DNA from: Streptosporangiaceae bacterium | GTDB taxonomy: Bacteria > Actinomycetota > Actinomycetes > Streptosporangiales > Streptosporangiaceae | Assembly: GCA_025934635.1 (NCBI GenBank) | Contig: JAICWX010000423.1 | Span: 1-6,367 of the forward strand | Length of the DNA stretch: 6,367 bases | Reading direction: 5' to 3' | Shown: positions 48 through 5,810 of the stretch, one piece after another | Position numbering within the stretch: position 1 is the first letter of the stretch | Layout of the letters: each line of letters begins with the position of its first letter | Position numbers and translations under genes: made by a program | Notes under the pieces: generated by a model | What the model was told of the DNA's origin: nothing | The model's input: the letters and a program-made list of their open reading frames with translations, nothing else | Database searches by the model: none

Positions 48-2165
48 TCAGGTCTGGTGAGGACGGCGGGTTAGCTCGGCTGCATAGCCGGACCAGTCAC
101 CTCCGGCTTGGTGCATCCACTTGGCGGCGGTCGTCTGGTGCAGGCCGAGGAGGTCAGCGAGGACCGCGGCGGGGAGGCGGGCGGCGAGGTCGAGCAGAGC
201 GGCACGTCGGCCGGTCTGGGCGTAGATGCCGAGGGCCCGCAGGCGTTCGCCGAGCGTGCTGGGGGTGATGGGGCGTCCGGGCAGGTGCCCGGGGAACAGC
301 CAGGCGGTCTGCTGCGGGGAGCCGACGCCCCGGTAGCTGCGGCCGTCGCTGATCAGCTGGAGCACGGCGTCGGCGAGCGGGCCGGGGACGGGCGTGTCGT
401 GCAGGCCGAGCCGGATGAGCGTCTGGTCGTCGCGGCGGGTGATCTGGCTGGTGGTCATGGCGGCGATCCGGGACAGCGGCTGGCCGTAGAGCAGGAGCAG
501 GCATCCGGCGACCCGGTCGGTGGGCTCGAGCGTGGGGTCGTGCAGCAGCCGGGTGGCTAGCGCCCACCGCTGGTCCTGGCTGATGGCAGGGCCGGTCGCG
601 CGTGGCGGCGCGGGTATCGTCAGCCGCTGGCAGTGGCGGCGTGAGGCAGCCCAGGCCAGGAAGTCCCTGGCCAGGCAGGCTGAGGGCCCGGTGTTCAGCC
701 ATTGGTCGACGTCGGCTTGCCCGCAGGTGGCGAGCGTGATGCCGTGGCTGCGGAGCCAGATGAGGAAGTTGGCGGCGGCGCGGATGTTGTTGCGGGCGTG
801 CGCGGTGGGGGTGCGCGGACGGGAGGTTTCCGCGGCGCTGGCGCGCAGCCGGCGCATGACCTGCCAGGTGGCGTAGGCCTGCACCAGGCGCCGGTCGGCG
901 GGCGGTTCGATCGCCTCCAGGGTCTCGGCGAGCCATTGCCCGGCACGGGCGAGTTCCTCGTCGCGGTGCGGTAGCGCCCCGGCGGCGGTGAGCATGTGCC
1001 GCAGGTAATCGGCGGCTCGCCGGCGGGGGTGGGCGTCCAGCGCGTCGTGGCTGATGGCCAGCCGGCCGGCGGCCACGTCGGCGAGCAGGCCAGCCCCGGC
1101 GCCCTTGCGCAGCCAGTTCAGCGCGCTGCGCGGCTGGCGGGCGGCGGCGGCCGCGTCGAACACGCCGCCTAGCTGCGCCGGGATGATCCCGGTCCCGGCC
1201 GACAGCAGCTGGCGGGCGCGGCGGCGCAGGCTGCACCGGCCGCAGCGGCCTTTCTCGTAGAGCTTGTCCTCGGTCCCGCAGTCCGTGCAGGCGTGGGTGA
1301 CCGGGAGTCCGGCGCAGTCCGCGCAGGTGTCAGCGGCCGGGCCGGGCGGGACGACCAGCCGCCGCTGCTGCCCGCAGCGCGCGCACGGCCCCCGGTGCTG
1401 CAGGGCCGCGCGGTAACACGGGTCGCAAACCGGTCCCTCCGGCCAGCGGGCTTCCGGCGGCCGGTCCTGCCCGCAGCGCGCGCAGGCGGCGGTGGCCCGG
1501 GGTGAGCACGAGGGGCAGATCGGCTCGCTGGTCGCCGCGTGGGCGCACGGGCGCCGCCGGTGGCATCTGCTGCAGATGGCTTCGGGCGGCCGGTAGCAGC
1601 TGGTGCAGGTGCCCGGCTGCCCATCCCGGCCGCGCGCCGCGACCGGCGCGGTCTTCCCGCACGTGCCGCATGCGCGGTGGCGGCGCGGGTCATCCCGGCG
1701 GCGGCAGACCTCGCAGACCGCCCGGCCGTGCTCGTCGAACCCGGCCGCCGGCTTGGCCTTGCCGCAGGTGGCGCAGGGCCTGGCCAGCTGCCAGGCGCGG
1801 CACCGCTGGCACACTGCGCCGCCGTCACCGCGGAACAGCGGCTTGCCGGCCCGGCCGCAGACCGTGCACGCCGGGATGGCCAGGACGGCGGAGCCGCGGG
1901 CGATCAGCTCGAGGGCCAGCCGCCCGGCGACCGGCGGCGCTCCGGCCCTCAGCGCTGCGGGATCGGCGGTCAGCGCGTCCGCGAGGTTCCGCAGGGCCTG
2001 CCCGCCCGGGGCGGCCGCGTCGACCGCGGCCTCGATCACCGCTGCGGGCAGTGACGGGTCCGCCGCCGCGACCGCCGCGACCACCGTCTCCCGGCGGCAG
2101 CGGGGGCACGGCCGGCCGCCGGGCGGCCAGGCCAGCTCGTGCCCGGCCGGGCAGTGACCGGCCAC
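48..2165 (-). CDS. zinc-ribbon array fused to a degenerate tyrosine recombinase-like domain
   Basis: The predicted protein has 705 residues. Residues 5-23 form an N-terminal Cys/His cluster (CPAGH then CPRC). Residues 100-311 hold seven tandem zinc ribbons, each a CxxC pair followed after about 11-17 residues by a second CxxC pair (for example C100/C103 with C119/C122, and C131/C134 with C151/C154). From about 440 on it resembles a tyrosine recombinase: a helical core-binding segment (HARNNIRAAANFLIWL), then a catalytic-like fold. The catalytic residues look lost: the first Arg is Gln in LLLYGQPLSRI, and the nucleophile position is Trp in TAAKWMHQAG. I infer a DNA-binding helper of the two upstream recombinases rather than an enzyme. 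The GTG at 2165 was chosen because it is 5 nt past the HTH gene's stop. The frame stays open to 2570, but an earlier start would overlap the HTH gene heavily. The Shine-Dalgarno is weak, so translation probably depends on coupling. Confidence 0.8.
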   Translation of the reverse strand: MAGHCPAGHELAWPPGGRPCPRCRRETVVAAVAAADPSLPAAVIEAAVDAAAPGGQALRNLADALTADPAALRAGAPPVAGRLALELIARGSAVLAIPACTVCGRAGKPLFRGDGGAVCQRCRAWQLARPCATCGKAKPAAGFDEHGRAVCEVCRRRDDPRRHRACGTCGKTAPVAARGRDGQPGTCTSCYRPPEAICSRCHRRRPCAHAATSEPICPSCSPRATAACARCGQDRPPEARWPEGPVCDPCYRAALQHRGPCARCGQQRRLVVPPGPAADTCADCAGLPVTHACTDCGTEDKLYEKGRCGRCSLRRRARQLLSAGTGIIPAQLGGVFDAAAAARQPRSALNWLRKGAGAGLLADVAAGRLAISHDALDAHPRRRAADYLRHMLTAAGALPHRDEELARAGQWLAETLEAIEPPADRRLVQAYATWQVMRRLRASAAETSRPRTPTAHARNNIRAAANFLIWLRSHGITLATCGQADVDQWLNTGPSACLARDFLAWAASRRHCQRLTIPAPPRATGPAISQDQRWALATRLLHDPTLEPTDRVAGCLLLLYGQPLSRIAAMTTSQITRRDDQTLIRLGLHDTPVPGPLADAVLQLISDGRSYRGVGSPQQTAWLFPGHLPGRPITPSTLGERLRALGIYAQTGRRAALLDLAARLPAAVLADLLGLHQTTAAKWMHQAGGDWSGYAAELTRRPHQT

Positions 2166-2170
2166 GGCCG

Positions 2171-2506
2171 CTACCCGCGGGCGGTGCCGGTCACCCGGGC
2201 ACGCACCGGCAGGGGCAGCGGCCCGTCGCCCGTTGCGGCGGGCCCGGCGGCCGCCACGCCGCCGGCGCCGGCAACAGTGACAGGCTCGACCAGATCGCCG
2301 GGCTGACAGCCCAGGATGTCGCACAGCGCCGCCAGCGTGGCCAGGCTGAGCCGCTCCGGGACGCCGGTGACCAGCCGGTAGACCTGCTCGCGGGACAGCG
2401 CGACGCCGCGCTCGGCCAGCAGCGGCCGCAGTTGCGTGGTGGCGTACATGTCCTGGCCGGCCATCAGCCGCCGCAGGTGCCACCGGTAGCCGATCGTCCT
2501 GGCCAT
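2171..2506 (-). CDS. small Cro/CI-type helix-turn-helix protein
   Basis: The protein has 111 residues. Residues 5-73 fit the HTH_26-like Cro/CI family: a first helix YRWHLRRLMA, a stretch ending in LLAERGVALSREQVYRLVTG that holds the helix-turn-helix, then LSLATLAALCDILGCQPGDLVEP, the usual closing helix and turn of this family. The tail from about 78 is rich in Ala, Gly and Pro and looks disordered. Its ATG shares one base with the stop of the preceding recombinase (TAATG), which decides the start and implies translational coupling. A GGAGAGG about 10 nt upstream can serve as ribosome binding site. Such proteins usually repress their own operon. Here it may instead be a directionality or accessory factor for the recombinases; the sequence does not decide between these. 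Confidence 0.85.
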   Translation of the reverse strand: MARTIGYRWHLRRLMAGQDMYATTQLRPLLAERGVALSREQVYRLVTGVPERLSLATLAALCDILGCQPGDLVEPVTVAGAGGVAAAGPAATGDGPLPLPVRARVTGTARG

Positions 2507-3591
2507 TACCTGCCGTCCTCTCCGCCGAACGCGCGGGCCAGCGCGGAGCGCAGCATCCGGTTCCGCGCATCTTGCCCGACCGTCGTATACGCAGCCGTCG
2601 TCGACGCCCACGAGTGCCCCGCCTGCTGCTGCACGAACAGCGGATCAGCGCCGTCCTCGATCAGGTGCGAGACATACGAATGCCGCAGGCAGTGCACCGG
2701 CAGCTCGCGCGGCAGCCCGGCCGCCTTGCGCCAGGCCGCGAACCGCTCATCGACCGAGCGGGGTGAGATCCGCTCCCCGCGCTCGGTCAGCCACAGCGCC
2801 GGATGAGACGGCACCCCCCAGCGGGGCCGCACCTGGTCGATGTACTGCGCCAGCGCCTCGGCCGCCCACGGCATCACGGTGGCCACCGCCCGGCGGCGCG
2901 GCGGGCTGCCCCGCATCGCCTTGCCGTAACGCACATGGCACACCCCGAAGCTGCCCAGTTCCGGAGCGGCAGGGTTCGGCGCGAAATCGGCCACGTCCAG
3001 CATCGCCGCCTCCCGGCGGCGCAGCCCCCACCCGTAGATCACCTTGAACAGCGTCGCGTCGCGGAACCCGGCCAGCCACCCCTTGCGCCCCGAGGCCGCC
3101 GCCTTCTCCACGTGATCATCGGCCGCGTCGAAGAGCGCCTGCAGCTCGGCCCGGGTCAGCGGCCGCCGCTCCGCCCGGCCCTCGTAATCGGCGACGTGCG
3201 CCGCGGTGTTCCGCTCCCAGAACACCTGCACCGGCACCGCCCCGGCACGCTGCTCGCACTCGCTGACCCACCCGTAGCGTGGATCGCACACATACTCCAG
3301 GAACAGCGCCAGCGCCCCCTGATACGAGCGGACCGTCGAATGCGCCCACCCGCCCGACGCGATCCACGCCTCGGCCTGCGCCGCCGTCCACTGCCACGGC
3401 CAGCACCCGGTGAACGCGGCGAACTGGCGCACCACCCGCTCCCGCTCGCCGGTCAGCCGGACCGTCAGCCGGCGCGCCTGCTGCTGACGCCGCCACCCCG
3501 CCAGCATCTCCTCCAGCAGCGCCGCACCCGCCGATACCGGCGCCGCGCCGTCCGCGGCAACCAGCGCCAGCGGCCCCCGCCGTGCCCCCAT
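2506..3591 (-). CDS. tyrosine recombinase, catalytically complete
   Basis: The protein has 361 residues. The N-terminal part (about 25-110) is a SAM-like core-binding domain (RERVVRQFAAFTG, then STVRSYQGALALFLEYV). The catalytic domain spans about 145-345 with every expected residue: R191 in YGWGLRRRE, K224 in VRYGKAMRG, H300 and R303 in HCLRH, H326 in QAGHSW, and the nucleophile Y335 in TTAAYTTV. Such enzymes cut and rejoin DNA at paired sites through a 3'-phosphotyrosine link. The start at 3591 was chosen over an ATG 18 nt upstream because a GGAGG at 3599-3603 sits 7 nt before it. Its stop overlaps the HTH start. It is the only intact recombinase in the window. The length is close to Tn554 TnpA, but the exact subfamily needs a phylogeny. 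Confidence 0.93.
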   Translation of the reverse strand: MGARRGPLALVAADGAAPVSAGAALLEEMLAGWRRQQQARRLTVRLTGERERVVRQFAAFTGCWPWQWTAAQAEAWIASGGWAHSTVRSYQGALALFLEYVCDPRYGWVSECEQRAGAVPVQVFWERNTAAHVADYEGRAERRPLTRAELQALFDAADDHVEKAAASGRKGWLAGFRDATLFKVIYGWGLRRREAAMLDVADFAPNPAAPELGSFGVCHVRYGKAMRGSPPRRRAVATVMPWAAEALAQYIDQVRPRWGVPSHPALWLTERGERISPRSVDERFAAWRKAAGLPRELPVHCLRHSYVSHLIEDGADPLFVQQQAGHSWASTTAAYTTVGQDARNRMLRSALARAFGGEDGR

Positions 3592-3598
3592 CCAGCCC

Positions 3599-3603
3599 CC
3601 TCC
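3599..3603 (-). promoter_or_regulatory. ribosome binding site of the intact recombinase
   Basis: GGAGG on the minus strand lies 7 nt before the ATG at 3589-3591. It settles the choice between two in-frame ATG codons, because the upstream ATG at 3609 has no comparable site before it. Confidence 0.75.
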
Positions 3604-3630
3604 GCGCATGCGCCGAACGCATCAACTGGT

Positions 3631-3721: not shown

Positions 3722-4900
3722 TCAGCCAGCCAGACCTGACGCCCGTAACGCCGCAGCCCTTACGGCGCCTGCCCCACGCCGGAGACGGAATGATGCATCT
3801 GATGCAACTCCGCGCCCTTTCAGCCGGGTGGCCAGCGAATGCCTGAGCGAGTGCATGCCATGACGGCGCTTGTCGCTCACCGGCACGTGCGCGGCCCGGG
3901 CGTGCTTGACCAGGATCTGATGCAGATGGTCCTGGTCGGAGAACGGCCCGACCGGCGCGTGGTGCCGCAAGAACACCTGCGGGCAGTCACTGGCAGGCCG
4001 GCCATGGCGGATGTAGTCGATCACCGCCCAGCCGACATCCTTCAGCAGCGGCAGCTGCACCGGGTCGCCGGTCTTGGCCTGCGTCACCAGCAGCTGGTTG
4101 CCAGGCCAGTCGAAATCAGCGAACTCGAGCCGGCGTATGTCGGCGCCGCGCAGGCCCAGCCTGGCGACCAGCAAGATGATCGCGTAATCCCGTTTCCCGC
4201 ACGGGTTGTCCCGGTCGATCGCCTCCACGATCCGGGCGACCTCACCCGGACCCCACACCGACGGGATCCTGGCCTGCCGGGACGAGCGCACCGCCGGCAC
4301 CGCGTCCAGGCAGCCGGCATCCACCAGGCCGGCGCCCGAAGCGAACTGCAGGAACGACCGGACCGCGCACAGCTTCTGCTCGACCGTCTTGAACTGGTAG
4401 CCGGCCAGCGTGGCGACGAACGCGCTGATCGTCGCGGCGTCACAGCTCGCCAGCCCGCCGCGCGTCGCGGTAAACGCGACGAACTCCCCGGCCAGCGTCC
4501 CGTAGGTCCGCACCGTCGAGAACGACCGCCCCGAAGAGCGCAGGTGCGCCTGGAACGCCGTGATCACCTCGGCACCCGCGGCGTCCAGCTTGCTCACCGA
4601 CCGGCTATAACGCCGCAGCACCGCCCCGTGTGCCTGGTACTCGCCGAGCATCGCGGCGACCCTGAACAGATAGATGTCGTTCGGCTTCAGGGTGCCGGCC
4701 TGCTCCTTGGCGAAGAAGCCGCACGCCTGGTCGACCCACGCCATCGCAGCGTCCAGGGAGAACTCCTCGATGCCGAGCGCATCGAAATGGTTCTGCATCC
4801 GGCGCCAGCAGCGCCGGTACCAGATCATCGTCGCGTCCTTGTAACCAAGACGCTGCAACTCCGCGTCCAGGTCCCGCACCAGCGCCGACAAGGCAGACAT
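3722..4900 (-). pseudogene. tyrosine recombinase truncated at its C-terminus
   Basis: The reading frame gives 392 residues. An N-terminal core-binding region (about 115-205, including FSTVRTYGTLAGEFVAFT) is followed by a catalytic domain with R251 in ARLGLRGADI, K276 in TQAKTGD, and H350/R353 in HSLRHSLATRL. The homology then stops at about residue 360. The following residues (KGRGVASDASFRLRRGAGAV and on) are Arg/Ala-rich and lack the GH motif and the nucleophilic Tyr, which should follow within about 35-40 residues. The enzyme therefore cannot form the covalent DNA link. The missing part is not in another frame nearby, so this is replacement or deletion, not a simple frameshift. The start at 4900 is preferred over the ATG at 4966 because GGAGGT lies 8 nt upstream of it. 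It is probably the first gene of the recombinase operon. It could still bind DNA or act as a non-cutting partner. Confidence 0.85.
3791..3808 (+). repeat. tandem 9-bp repeat near the recombinase break point
   Basis: TGATGCATC is followed directly by TGATGCAAC, 8 of 9 identical. It lies about 12 bp past the point where recombinase homology ends (about 3820) and may mark the rearrangement junction. A short repeat like this can also occur by chance. Confidence 0.45.
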
Positions 4901-4964: not shown

Positions 4965-4994
4965 ATGTTATGCGCAGCGGTCGATCCCCGTCAT
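4965..4994 (-). promoter_or_regulatory. possible promoter of the recombinase operon
   Basis: On the minus strand ATGACG (4994-4989) and TAACAT (4970-4965) each match 4 of 6 bases of the sigma-70-type -35 and -10 consensus, with 18 bp between them. The -10 overlaps the arm repeat at 4968-4978, so recombinase binding could block transcription. The match is modest and actinomycete promoters are variable. Confidence 0.3.
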
Positions 4995-5075
4995 CGCCCT
5001 CACCAGGGACATCAGGACGACGCTGCGCATAATCCCGCACTGTTCATAAGGCGGCTTATGTTCAGCTGAACATAA
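4968..5075. repeat. cluster of five dif-like recombinase arm repeats
   Basis: Five 11-bp arms share TTATG-NN-CAG. As read on the plus strand they are TTATGCGCAGC (4968-4978), GCTGCGCATAA (5022-5032), ACTGTTCATAA (5039-5049), TTATGTTCAGC (5056-5066) and GCTGAACATAA (5065-5075). Arms two and three, and arms three and four, are each separated by exactly 6 bp (5033-5038 and 5050-5055). Arms three and four face each other, giving the 11-6-11 inverted layout of a tyrosine-recombinase core site, with the inner CATAA...TTATG bases shared with XerCD dif sites. Arms four and five merge into a perfect 20-bp palindrome at 5056-5075. I found no other copy in the window. The repeats are seen directly. Their use by the neighbouring recombinases is inference. 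Confidence 0.8.
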
Positions 5076-5810
5076 CGACCCCTGGGGGGTTCCGGCGCTG
5101 GTGTTCTCCAGCGCGCCGTCCTCGCGCAGGATGCCCGCTTTCAGGAACGCCTTTACCAGGGCCAGGACGCGCTTGTCCCCGACGCGTGCCCGCACCCGGT
5201 TCATGAGGCCGACATGCGAGATTTCGTCGAAGCAGGCTTTGATGTCGCCCTCGACCACCCACTCGTAATTCCTGTTGTGGGAGGCCAGGTAGCGCACCTC
5301 GGCCACCGCGTCCCAGGCCCGCCGGTTCGGGCGGAACCCGTAGGAGCAGGGCAGGAAGTCCGCCTCGAAGACGGGCTCCAGCACCAGTTTCAGCGCTGCC
5401 TGCACCACTCTGTCACGGACAGTGGCTATCCCCAGCCGCCTCTTCTTCGAGGTGCCCGGCTTGGGGATCATCCGTTCCCGCACGGGAAGCGGGCGGAAGC
5501 TGCGCGCCTTCAGTGCCTCGCGCAGCCCGCCGACGAGAGTTTCCACGCCCACGGTGTTCTCAACATGCCAGGCGGTCATCCCGTCGACCCCGGCGGACCG
5601 GGCGCCCCGGTTGCCCCGCACGCGATACCACGCCACCCGGAGGAAGGCGGGATCGCAGACGAGGTTATACAGATCATCGAACCTGCGGCCAGGATCGCTC
5701 CTTGCCCATTGGTGCAGCTTGGCCTGGATCTCCAGTACCCGCCGCTCGGCCGCCCACAAGGCGGGGTCGCGCGCCAGATCGCCGGTATTCACCAGCGTCA
5801 CTCCCGGCAT
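4968..5810 (-). pseudogene. ltrA: group II intron reverse transcriptase/maturase, N-terminal fragment
   Basis: The open frame gives 280 residues, of which about 1-245 belong to the group II intron-encoded protein. Visible blocks are FRPLPVRERMIPKPG and KKRRLGIATVRDRVVQAALKLVLEPVFE (RT0-RT2 region), CSYGFRPNRRAWDAV, EGDIKACFDEI with the first catalytic Asp at 189, and TPQG at 241-244. The YADD motif, the X/maturase domain and any endonuclease domain are missing, so it has no polymerase or splicing function. From about residue 246 the frame runs through the arm repeats, and its TAA stop lies inside the arm at 4968-4978. The start at 5810 has a GGGAGG 8 nt upstream (5819-5824), which is better than the longer frame from 5918. 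Full-length relatives are about 400-600 residues. The ltrA symbol is used in the family sense only. Confidence 0.9.

Follow-up and report, generated by a model that had tools for sequence, protein, structure and literature searches.

A probable RIT element end located within the reverse transcriptase gene of a group II intron, and the attachment-site pattern of its relatives

The DNA analysed here, a stretch of 6,367 nucleotides that we refer to as the window, carries at 4968-5075 a cluster of short phased arms. They probably represent the palindrome-bearing end, on the ritA side, of a RIT (recombinase-in-trio) element that inserted into the reverse transcriptase (RT) gene of a group II intron. 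Its relatives suggest how the RIT class picks its targets and inserts. At the level of sequence patterns, comparison among them shows a common arm grammar, its recurrence at ritA and ritC, a palindrome present at one end, the fixed side of that palindrome with respect to the target, and a rule governing the spacers. On the reading that we somewhat favour, RIT elements would be homing parasites of other mobile elements, with a double-core joint that permits either orientation, a fixed target polarity and a 2-bp match, each type being aimed at conserved, often catalytic, codons, and with an inner spacer that records an earlier site.

Layers of the window

By homology, the minus strand of the window is a nest of three: an RT gene split by a RIT element, whose ritA is in turn broken by a second module (Table 1). 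The outer layer is the group II intron RT gene (RVT_1, TIGR04416), which reads to ..GTPQGS with its last base at 5076; its likely start is at 5810, the open frame extending back to 5918, and its TIGR04416 score (209 bits against a cut-off of 300) falls short, as expected since the gene is a fragment. An Rfam search of the window did not find the intron RNA. The middle layer consists of the arm cluster and then the tyrosine recombinase gene rec1 (ritA), from 4900 downward, while the inner layer starts at 3806, where rec1 homology stops, and contains rec2, an HTH protein and a Cys-rich protein.

Table 1. Features of the window, from the RT gene inward (B, target arm; s, outer spacer; s', inner spacer; P1-P3, further arms).
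Feature	Coordinates	Strand	Remarks
Group II intron RT gene, 5' part	5082..5810	-	ends ..GTPQ at target arm B; RVT_1 2.6e-18; TIGR04416 1.1e-61
Target arm B	5082..5095	-	RT codons ..G T P Q; same position in L098, L099, L100, L103
Outer spacer s = GGGTCG	5076..5081	-	6 bp; Gly-Ser codons of PQGS
Palindrome TTATGTTCAGCTGAACATAA	5056..5075	.	20 bp; proposed common arm of two cores; one-ended in relatives
Inner spacer s' = GCCGCC (reverse complement GGCGGC)	5050..5055	-	6 bp
Arm P1 TTATGAACAGT	5039..5049	-	terminal inverted repeat begins here
Gap P1 to P2	5033..5038	-	6 bp
Arm P2 TTATGCGCAGC	5022..5032	-	orientation as P1
Arm P3 TTATGCGCAGCG	4968..4979	+	inverted partner of P2
ritA remnant	3807..4900	-	RitA residues 1-366 of 410; catalytic Tyr region missing
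TGCATCTGATGCA	3794..3806	.	end motif of second module; RitA homology stops here
rec2, tyrosine recombinase, second module	2506..3609	-	PF00589 2.1e-17; homologues found
HTH protein, second module	2171..2506	-	PF13443 3.8e-15
Cys-rich (zinc-ribbon-like) protein, second module	48..2162	-	794 homologues among candidates scored

The same kind of evidence identifies rec1 as RitA: over 3806-4900 it shares 70% identity with R. pseudokoreensis RitA (residues 1-366 of 410), its identity to the RitA of pHG1 being 34%, and the end with the catalytic tyrosine has been lost by the break at the second module. Pfam places PF02899 at 135-209 of the 414 residues of the frame, followed by PF00589 and with room before PF02899; among the rec1 relatives listed, some possess two SAM-like domains plus PF00589 (PF13495 + PF02899 + PF00589), and two core-binding domains are described for RitA in the excerpts of PMC8138268 that were compared. 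The proteins closest to those of the window, for rec1 and for genes of the second module, come from metagenome contigs, with identities of up to 91%, 97% and 96%. Wider genome searches for close RitA gave 3/298 at E<=1e-30, with 37-40% identity, and 2/401 at E<=1e-60, the latter at coordinates equal to those of L098 and L101; the RitA search of viral contigs gave no locus.

In two Rhodococcus plasmids (L098, L099) the relative of rec1 heads a ritA-ritB-ritC trio; P1-P2-P3 lie before ritA and, mirrored, after ritC, and the RT halves lie outside. A RIT element is expected to carry terminal inverted repeats of about 28-34 bp together with a palindrome. The palindrome-bearing ends of these two elements align with the end in the window, the only one that it holds, whose P1-P3 part aligns with both of their ends. 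Both, as the closest complete relatives, have the three Rit genes adjacent and overlapping (ritB is split in the annotation of L098), and the window has codons 1-366 of ritA only. The original prediction took the recombinase trio to be the window's own operon; the trio is instead RitA/RitB/RitC, present here as the shortened ritA. The rest of ritA, ritB and ritC are not in the window because the second recombinase-HTH module broke into ritA, and are either lost or located beyond it.

The arm cluster and the second module

The arms are all present as originally predicted: ACTGTTCATAA (5039-5049) and TTATGTTCAGC (5056-5066) face each other across exactly 6 bp (5050-5055), a third arm, GCTGCGCATAA (5022-5032), stands 6 bp farther out in the orientation of its neighbour, and the 20-bp palindrome at 5056-5075 is perfect. 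To these we add a fifth arm, TTATGCGCAGCG at 4968-4979, a perfect inverted partner of 5021-5032; the distance from P2 start to P3 end is 65 bp, the same as in L098, L099 and L103. The order toward rec1 is B (..CCCCAG), s (GGGTCG), TTATGTTCAGCTGAACATAA, s' (GCCGCC), P1 (TTATGAACAGT), 6 bp and P2 (TTATGCGCAGC). All five CATAA/TTATG words of the 6367-bp window fall in 4968-5075, against a mean of 1.36 per window and a maximum of 2 inside 110 bp in 500 first-order Markov shuffles. The proposal that this is a dif-like site whose arms number more than two, are phased at 6 bp and belong to an element with a recombinase trio looks supported.

Relatives follow a common grammar, namely target arm, 6 bp, 20-bp palindrome, 6 bp, P1, 6 bp and P2. 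Its strict form matched 24 times in 48 loci around ritA relatives (436,159 bases, window excluded), related elements such as L098, L099 and L103 not being independent in this and the other counts, and 0 times in 8,723,180 bases of shuffled sequence, a result that rules out a chance origin. Going inward from the match, the first recombinase gene is a relative of ritA or ritC in 24/24 cases, at a distance within 500 bp in 21 of them and at 844 bp (L162), 1943 bp (L130) and 3084 bp (L135) in the others. That the arms serve only as an operator controlling ritA, upstream of which they lie, is extremely unlikely, considering that P1-P2-P3 also follow ritC in L098 and L099 and that s is precisely where the homology to intact RT genes stops. 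Use by host XerC/XerD, as in IMEX elements, would account for the inner CATAA/TTATG and the 6-bp spacer, but we judge it very unlikely: the arms vary by RIT type (CTATGCCGA, TTATTCCGA, TTATCTCGA) and adjoin the elements' own recombinases, and the flanking DNA is coding sequence that belongs to other genes.

XerCD dif sites have exactly two arms of ~11 bp, with inner CATAA/TTATG around 6 bp, and are unlinked to a mobile recombinase. The cluster resembles them in arm length, inner words and the 6-bp interval, and differs in having five arms in a mobile end rather than two on a host chromosome. A host dif site was also considered as a candidate and rejected, there being five arms beside ritA as opposed to two arms with no linked mobile recombinase.

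In L130 (3076-4980) and L135 (1935-4980) the RIT ends lie 1.9-3.1 kb upstream of ritA with genes between them (TetR and an EamA transporter in L130; a DNA glycosylase, TetR and an alkene reductase in L135), and these elements seem to carry cargo. Two short contigs (L110, L116) have long inverted copies of another gene flanking the RIT on both sides, which reflect either a real rearrangement or an assembly artefact.

The arms had been assigned in the original prediction to the window's recombinase-HTH-zinc-ribbon module, and they do lie on the upstream side of rec2, ~1.3 kb away. Such an assignment is now hardly tenable. Relatives of the module lack both the arms and rec1 (a rec1 or RT match was found in 0/67 of their loci at E<=1e-5), and several have a different end motif, which the window also contains, at 3794-3806. 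The ends of homologous modules, where the arms should have recurred, are without them, and it is RIT elements without the module that bear arms, at both ends. The strict grammar gave a single match in 28 module loci (L051), 3.7 kb from the module and beside other recombinase genes.

The module's own end, TTGCATC-N-GATGCAA, is situated ~175-225 bp before rec2 in the window, L001, L003 (imperfect), L053, L054 and L055; in the other 13 module relatives examined the TTGCATC/GATGCAA motif is partial or absent. The module sits just after the LRH motif of a tyrosine recombinase frame in L003, L005, L053 and L055, as it does in ritA of the window, and the flank differs in other relatives. Lying inside ritA, after LRH as in these relatives, it makes the window a doll in a doll, and it is perhaps another element type aimed at recombinase active sites. 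Its Cys-rich protein (48-2162) had no Pfam or NCBIfam match at 0.001, and a search of viral contigs with it gave no locus. Some relatives of this protein are named integrase, and for that reason its C-terminal half may be a degenerate recombinase.

Palindrome, spacers and targets

In RT insertions the palindrome is at the PQ side in 5/5 cases (window, L098, L099, L100, L103) and the bare P1 end at the VISP side in 7/7 (L098, L099, L100, L101, L102, L128, L129, the last two near-identical and both counted). The trio reads in the same direction as the RT in the window, L099, L100 and L103, and in the opposite direction in L098. The palindrome also keeps to a fixed side, with both orientations present, in the L122/L123 pair and in five ArdC insertions (L130, L131, L132, L134, L135). 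Among 39 ritA-ritC pairs it is one-ended in 19 (10 on the ritA side, 9 on the ritC side), occurs at both ends in one (L103, a composite of two elements) and was not found within 420 bp in 19; in 6 of these 19 (L100, L120, L130, L135, L162, L165) it was seen by eye or farther out, and the remaining 13 include cut contigs, bare ends and decayed ends, some pairs spanning neighbouring elements.

For each element we compared the outer spacer s, the complement of the inner spacer s' and, if visible, the bare-end spacer. Mismatches at positions 1-6, counted from B, numbered 0, 2, 32, 14, 14 and 32 (32 elements, 84 comparisons), and L160, which has a doubtful partner end 9.6 kb away, accounts for both mismatches at position 2. 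These 32 elements comprise 29 of 31 tabulated rows together with the window, L100 and L120, which were read by eye; the two dropped rows (L098 at 53, L159 at 7618) are weak palindromes without a partner end. A separate spacer count used 19 hand-picked complete elements. In the window, the other end of the element being outside it, s (GGGTCG) agrees with the complement of s' (GGCGGC) at 2/6 bases.

Integron attC is a folded single-strand site. The palindrome with its complementary spacers might similarly be a folded single-strand site or the product of fold-back copying after insertion, in which case s' would be the complement of s. The two are exact reverse complements in 14/32 elements, the best cases forming a perfect 32-bp palindrome, and related SE elements are reported to be strand-biased in the excerpts of PMC10214605 that were compared; we nevertheless find this explanation unlikely, as s and s' differ in 18/32, and as L131 and L134 have matching outer spacers but an s' that departs from them at 3 or more bases. 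This last pattern is expected if s' is a leftover from an earlier site. The bare-end spacer of L099 and L132 agrees with s' rather than with s, and exchange can therefore leave the bases of either parent.

The RT target is best seen in L098 and L099, whose flanks are two halves of one RT (RVT_1 positions 19-123 and 124-204 lie on the two sides of the L098 junction). The break separates B (..CCACAG), the spacer GGNGGN (Gly-Gly) and B', GTGATTTC (Val-Ile-Ser); the window s, GGGTCG, encodes Gly-Ser and therefore fits the PQG[G/S] codons. Group II intron RNA is located nearby, as D1-D4 in L098, L099 and L103 and as the RF00029 intron family in L100, L101 and L102. Element-free RT genes, compared in 9 records with at least 80% cover of the L099 flank, match that flank as far as base 679, where s ends, in 8/9 records, the ninth ending at 666. 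The three of the nine that were retrieved (L166, L167, L168) all retain an intact motif (GTPQGGV, GTPQGGV and GTAQGGV, respectively) in uninterrupted frames of 475-485 codons. Separately, L128 and L129 show a lone bare RIT end (3001-3032) in a group II intron RT gene; beyond P2 the sequence soon diverges between these two Rhodococcus plasmids.

The identified targets, judging from flanks translated separately, appear to be, for the most part, codons that are conserved or catalytic in other mobile genes. Pfam was applied to a chosen set, which took in 3/5 of the ArdC cases and excluded L118, L122, L130 and L135. Besides PQG[GS] of the RT in the window group, the sites are YADD of an RT (L118, by eye); HxLRH of a tyrosine recombinase (L115, L123, L159, and L122 by eye) or the region near its catalytic Tyr (L138 plus, and L105 by annotation and eye); HExxH of an ArdC-type zincin (L131, L132 and L134 by Pfam, L130 and L135 by eye), the ArdC profile in L132 ending at 51 in one flank and resuming at 53 in the other; transposases (L103, L109, L111, L127, L163, L164, L165, and L119 by eye); and IstB at 158/159 (L138 minus). 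The motifs at target sites we take to be HxLRH, YADD, HExxH, DDE residues and, in IstB, Walker B; the sites in L109, L111 and L119 fall in a conserved stretch, yet presumably not a catalytic one. No Pfam match was found for L105, L119, one L123 piece and two L160 frames, and one L115 piece, one L159 piece and L138 (plus) were below the Pfam cut-off. Exceptions to the mobile-gene pattern are L114, with a PCMT-like methyltransferase as its target, and L160 and L162, whose flanks give no identity for the target genes.

Three insertions (L163, L165 and L138 at 548, minus) are at [GC]TCGAC/GA, codons [VL]DD, in three unrelated proteins, a DDE_5 transposase, an ISL3 transposase and IstB.

Proposed mechanism and known systems

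We propose that RIT elements would insert by tyrosine-recombinase strand exchange over a 6-bp spacer, in the present case after the Gln codon of PQG[G/S]. The element would move as a circle with the predicted joint P2-6-P1-s-PAL-s'-P1-6-P2, which would present two inverted dif-like cores (P1-s-PAL and PAL-s'-P1) back to back, with the 20-bp palindrome in common. RitA/B/C could pair either core with the target B-t-B', leaving the palindrome at B and the bare P1 at B'; which core is used would decide the orientation, use of the other core flipping the element. The first 2 bp of the spacer would act as a homology test, as only these would have to match, and the unused core would retain the older spacer s'; P2 and P3 may be accessory arms. 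An exact-pattern search of viral contigs for the circle joint found none, and a search of viral contigs with the palindrome-junction pattern gave no locus. A double core with a common palindrome offers concrete, testable sites for RIT recombination. If the proposal is right, the targeting of conserved motifs of mobile elements would explain how RIT elements can spread while burdening the host little, and such targeting would also explain mobile DNA as nested dolls.

RIT elements are established (PMC3414803, PMC2864759, PMC8138268, PMC10214605), and the comparison that follows refers to the parts of these papers that were available. The trios of pHG1 were named RIT in the 2012 survey (PMC3414803). 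It describes an inverted repeat of 28-29 bp overlapped by a palindrome, as well as elements lodged in mobile genes; it reports no convincing binding sites beyond repeat and palindrome, and finds the need for three proteins hard to see. The term 'group II intron' is absent from the part compared (0 occurrences). According to a 2023 comparison, neither the target specificity nor the empty site nor the movement of RIT elements had been tested (PMC10214605). The attachment-site logic and the intron target appear new with respect to the literature compared, Ricker 2013 and Van Houdt 2009 lying outside it.

The RIT elements of C. metallidurans CH34 and of pHG1 of C. necator H16 are alike in that their genes overlap in the order ritA-ritB-ritC, their termini are inverted repeats that a palindrome adjoins, and they insert in mobile genes; there, the repeat and overlapping palindrome are described as flanking ritA and ritC and as not fitting the usual core and arm sites (PMC3414803, PMC2864759). 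In contrast to those descriptions, in the parts compared, the palindrome here occupies one end only, shows 6-bp phasing and keeps to a fixed side of the target, and the RT PQG[G/S] target is unmentioned in them. SE elements similarly have a motif C - 6 bp - C' at the circle joint and a 6-bp spacer carried between sites, but their genes are intA-tfp-intB-srap and the excerpts describe no common 20-bp palindrome (PMC10214605). The SE gene set was not encountered here, L098, L104 and L105 being annotated with three tyrosine recombinase genes in a row. GInt islands likewise have three integrase-type genes and differ, according to the excerpts of PMC5385486 compared, by a fourth gene, ginD.
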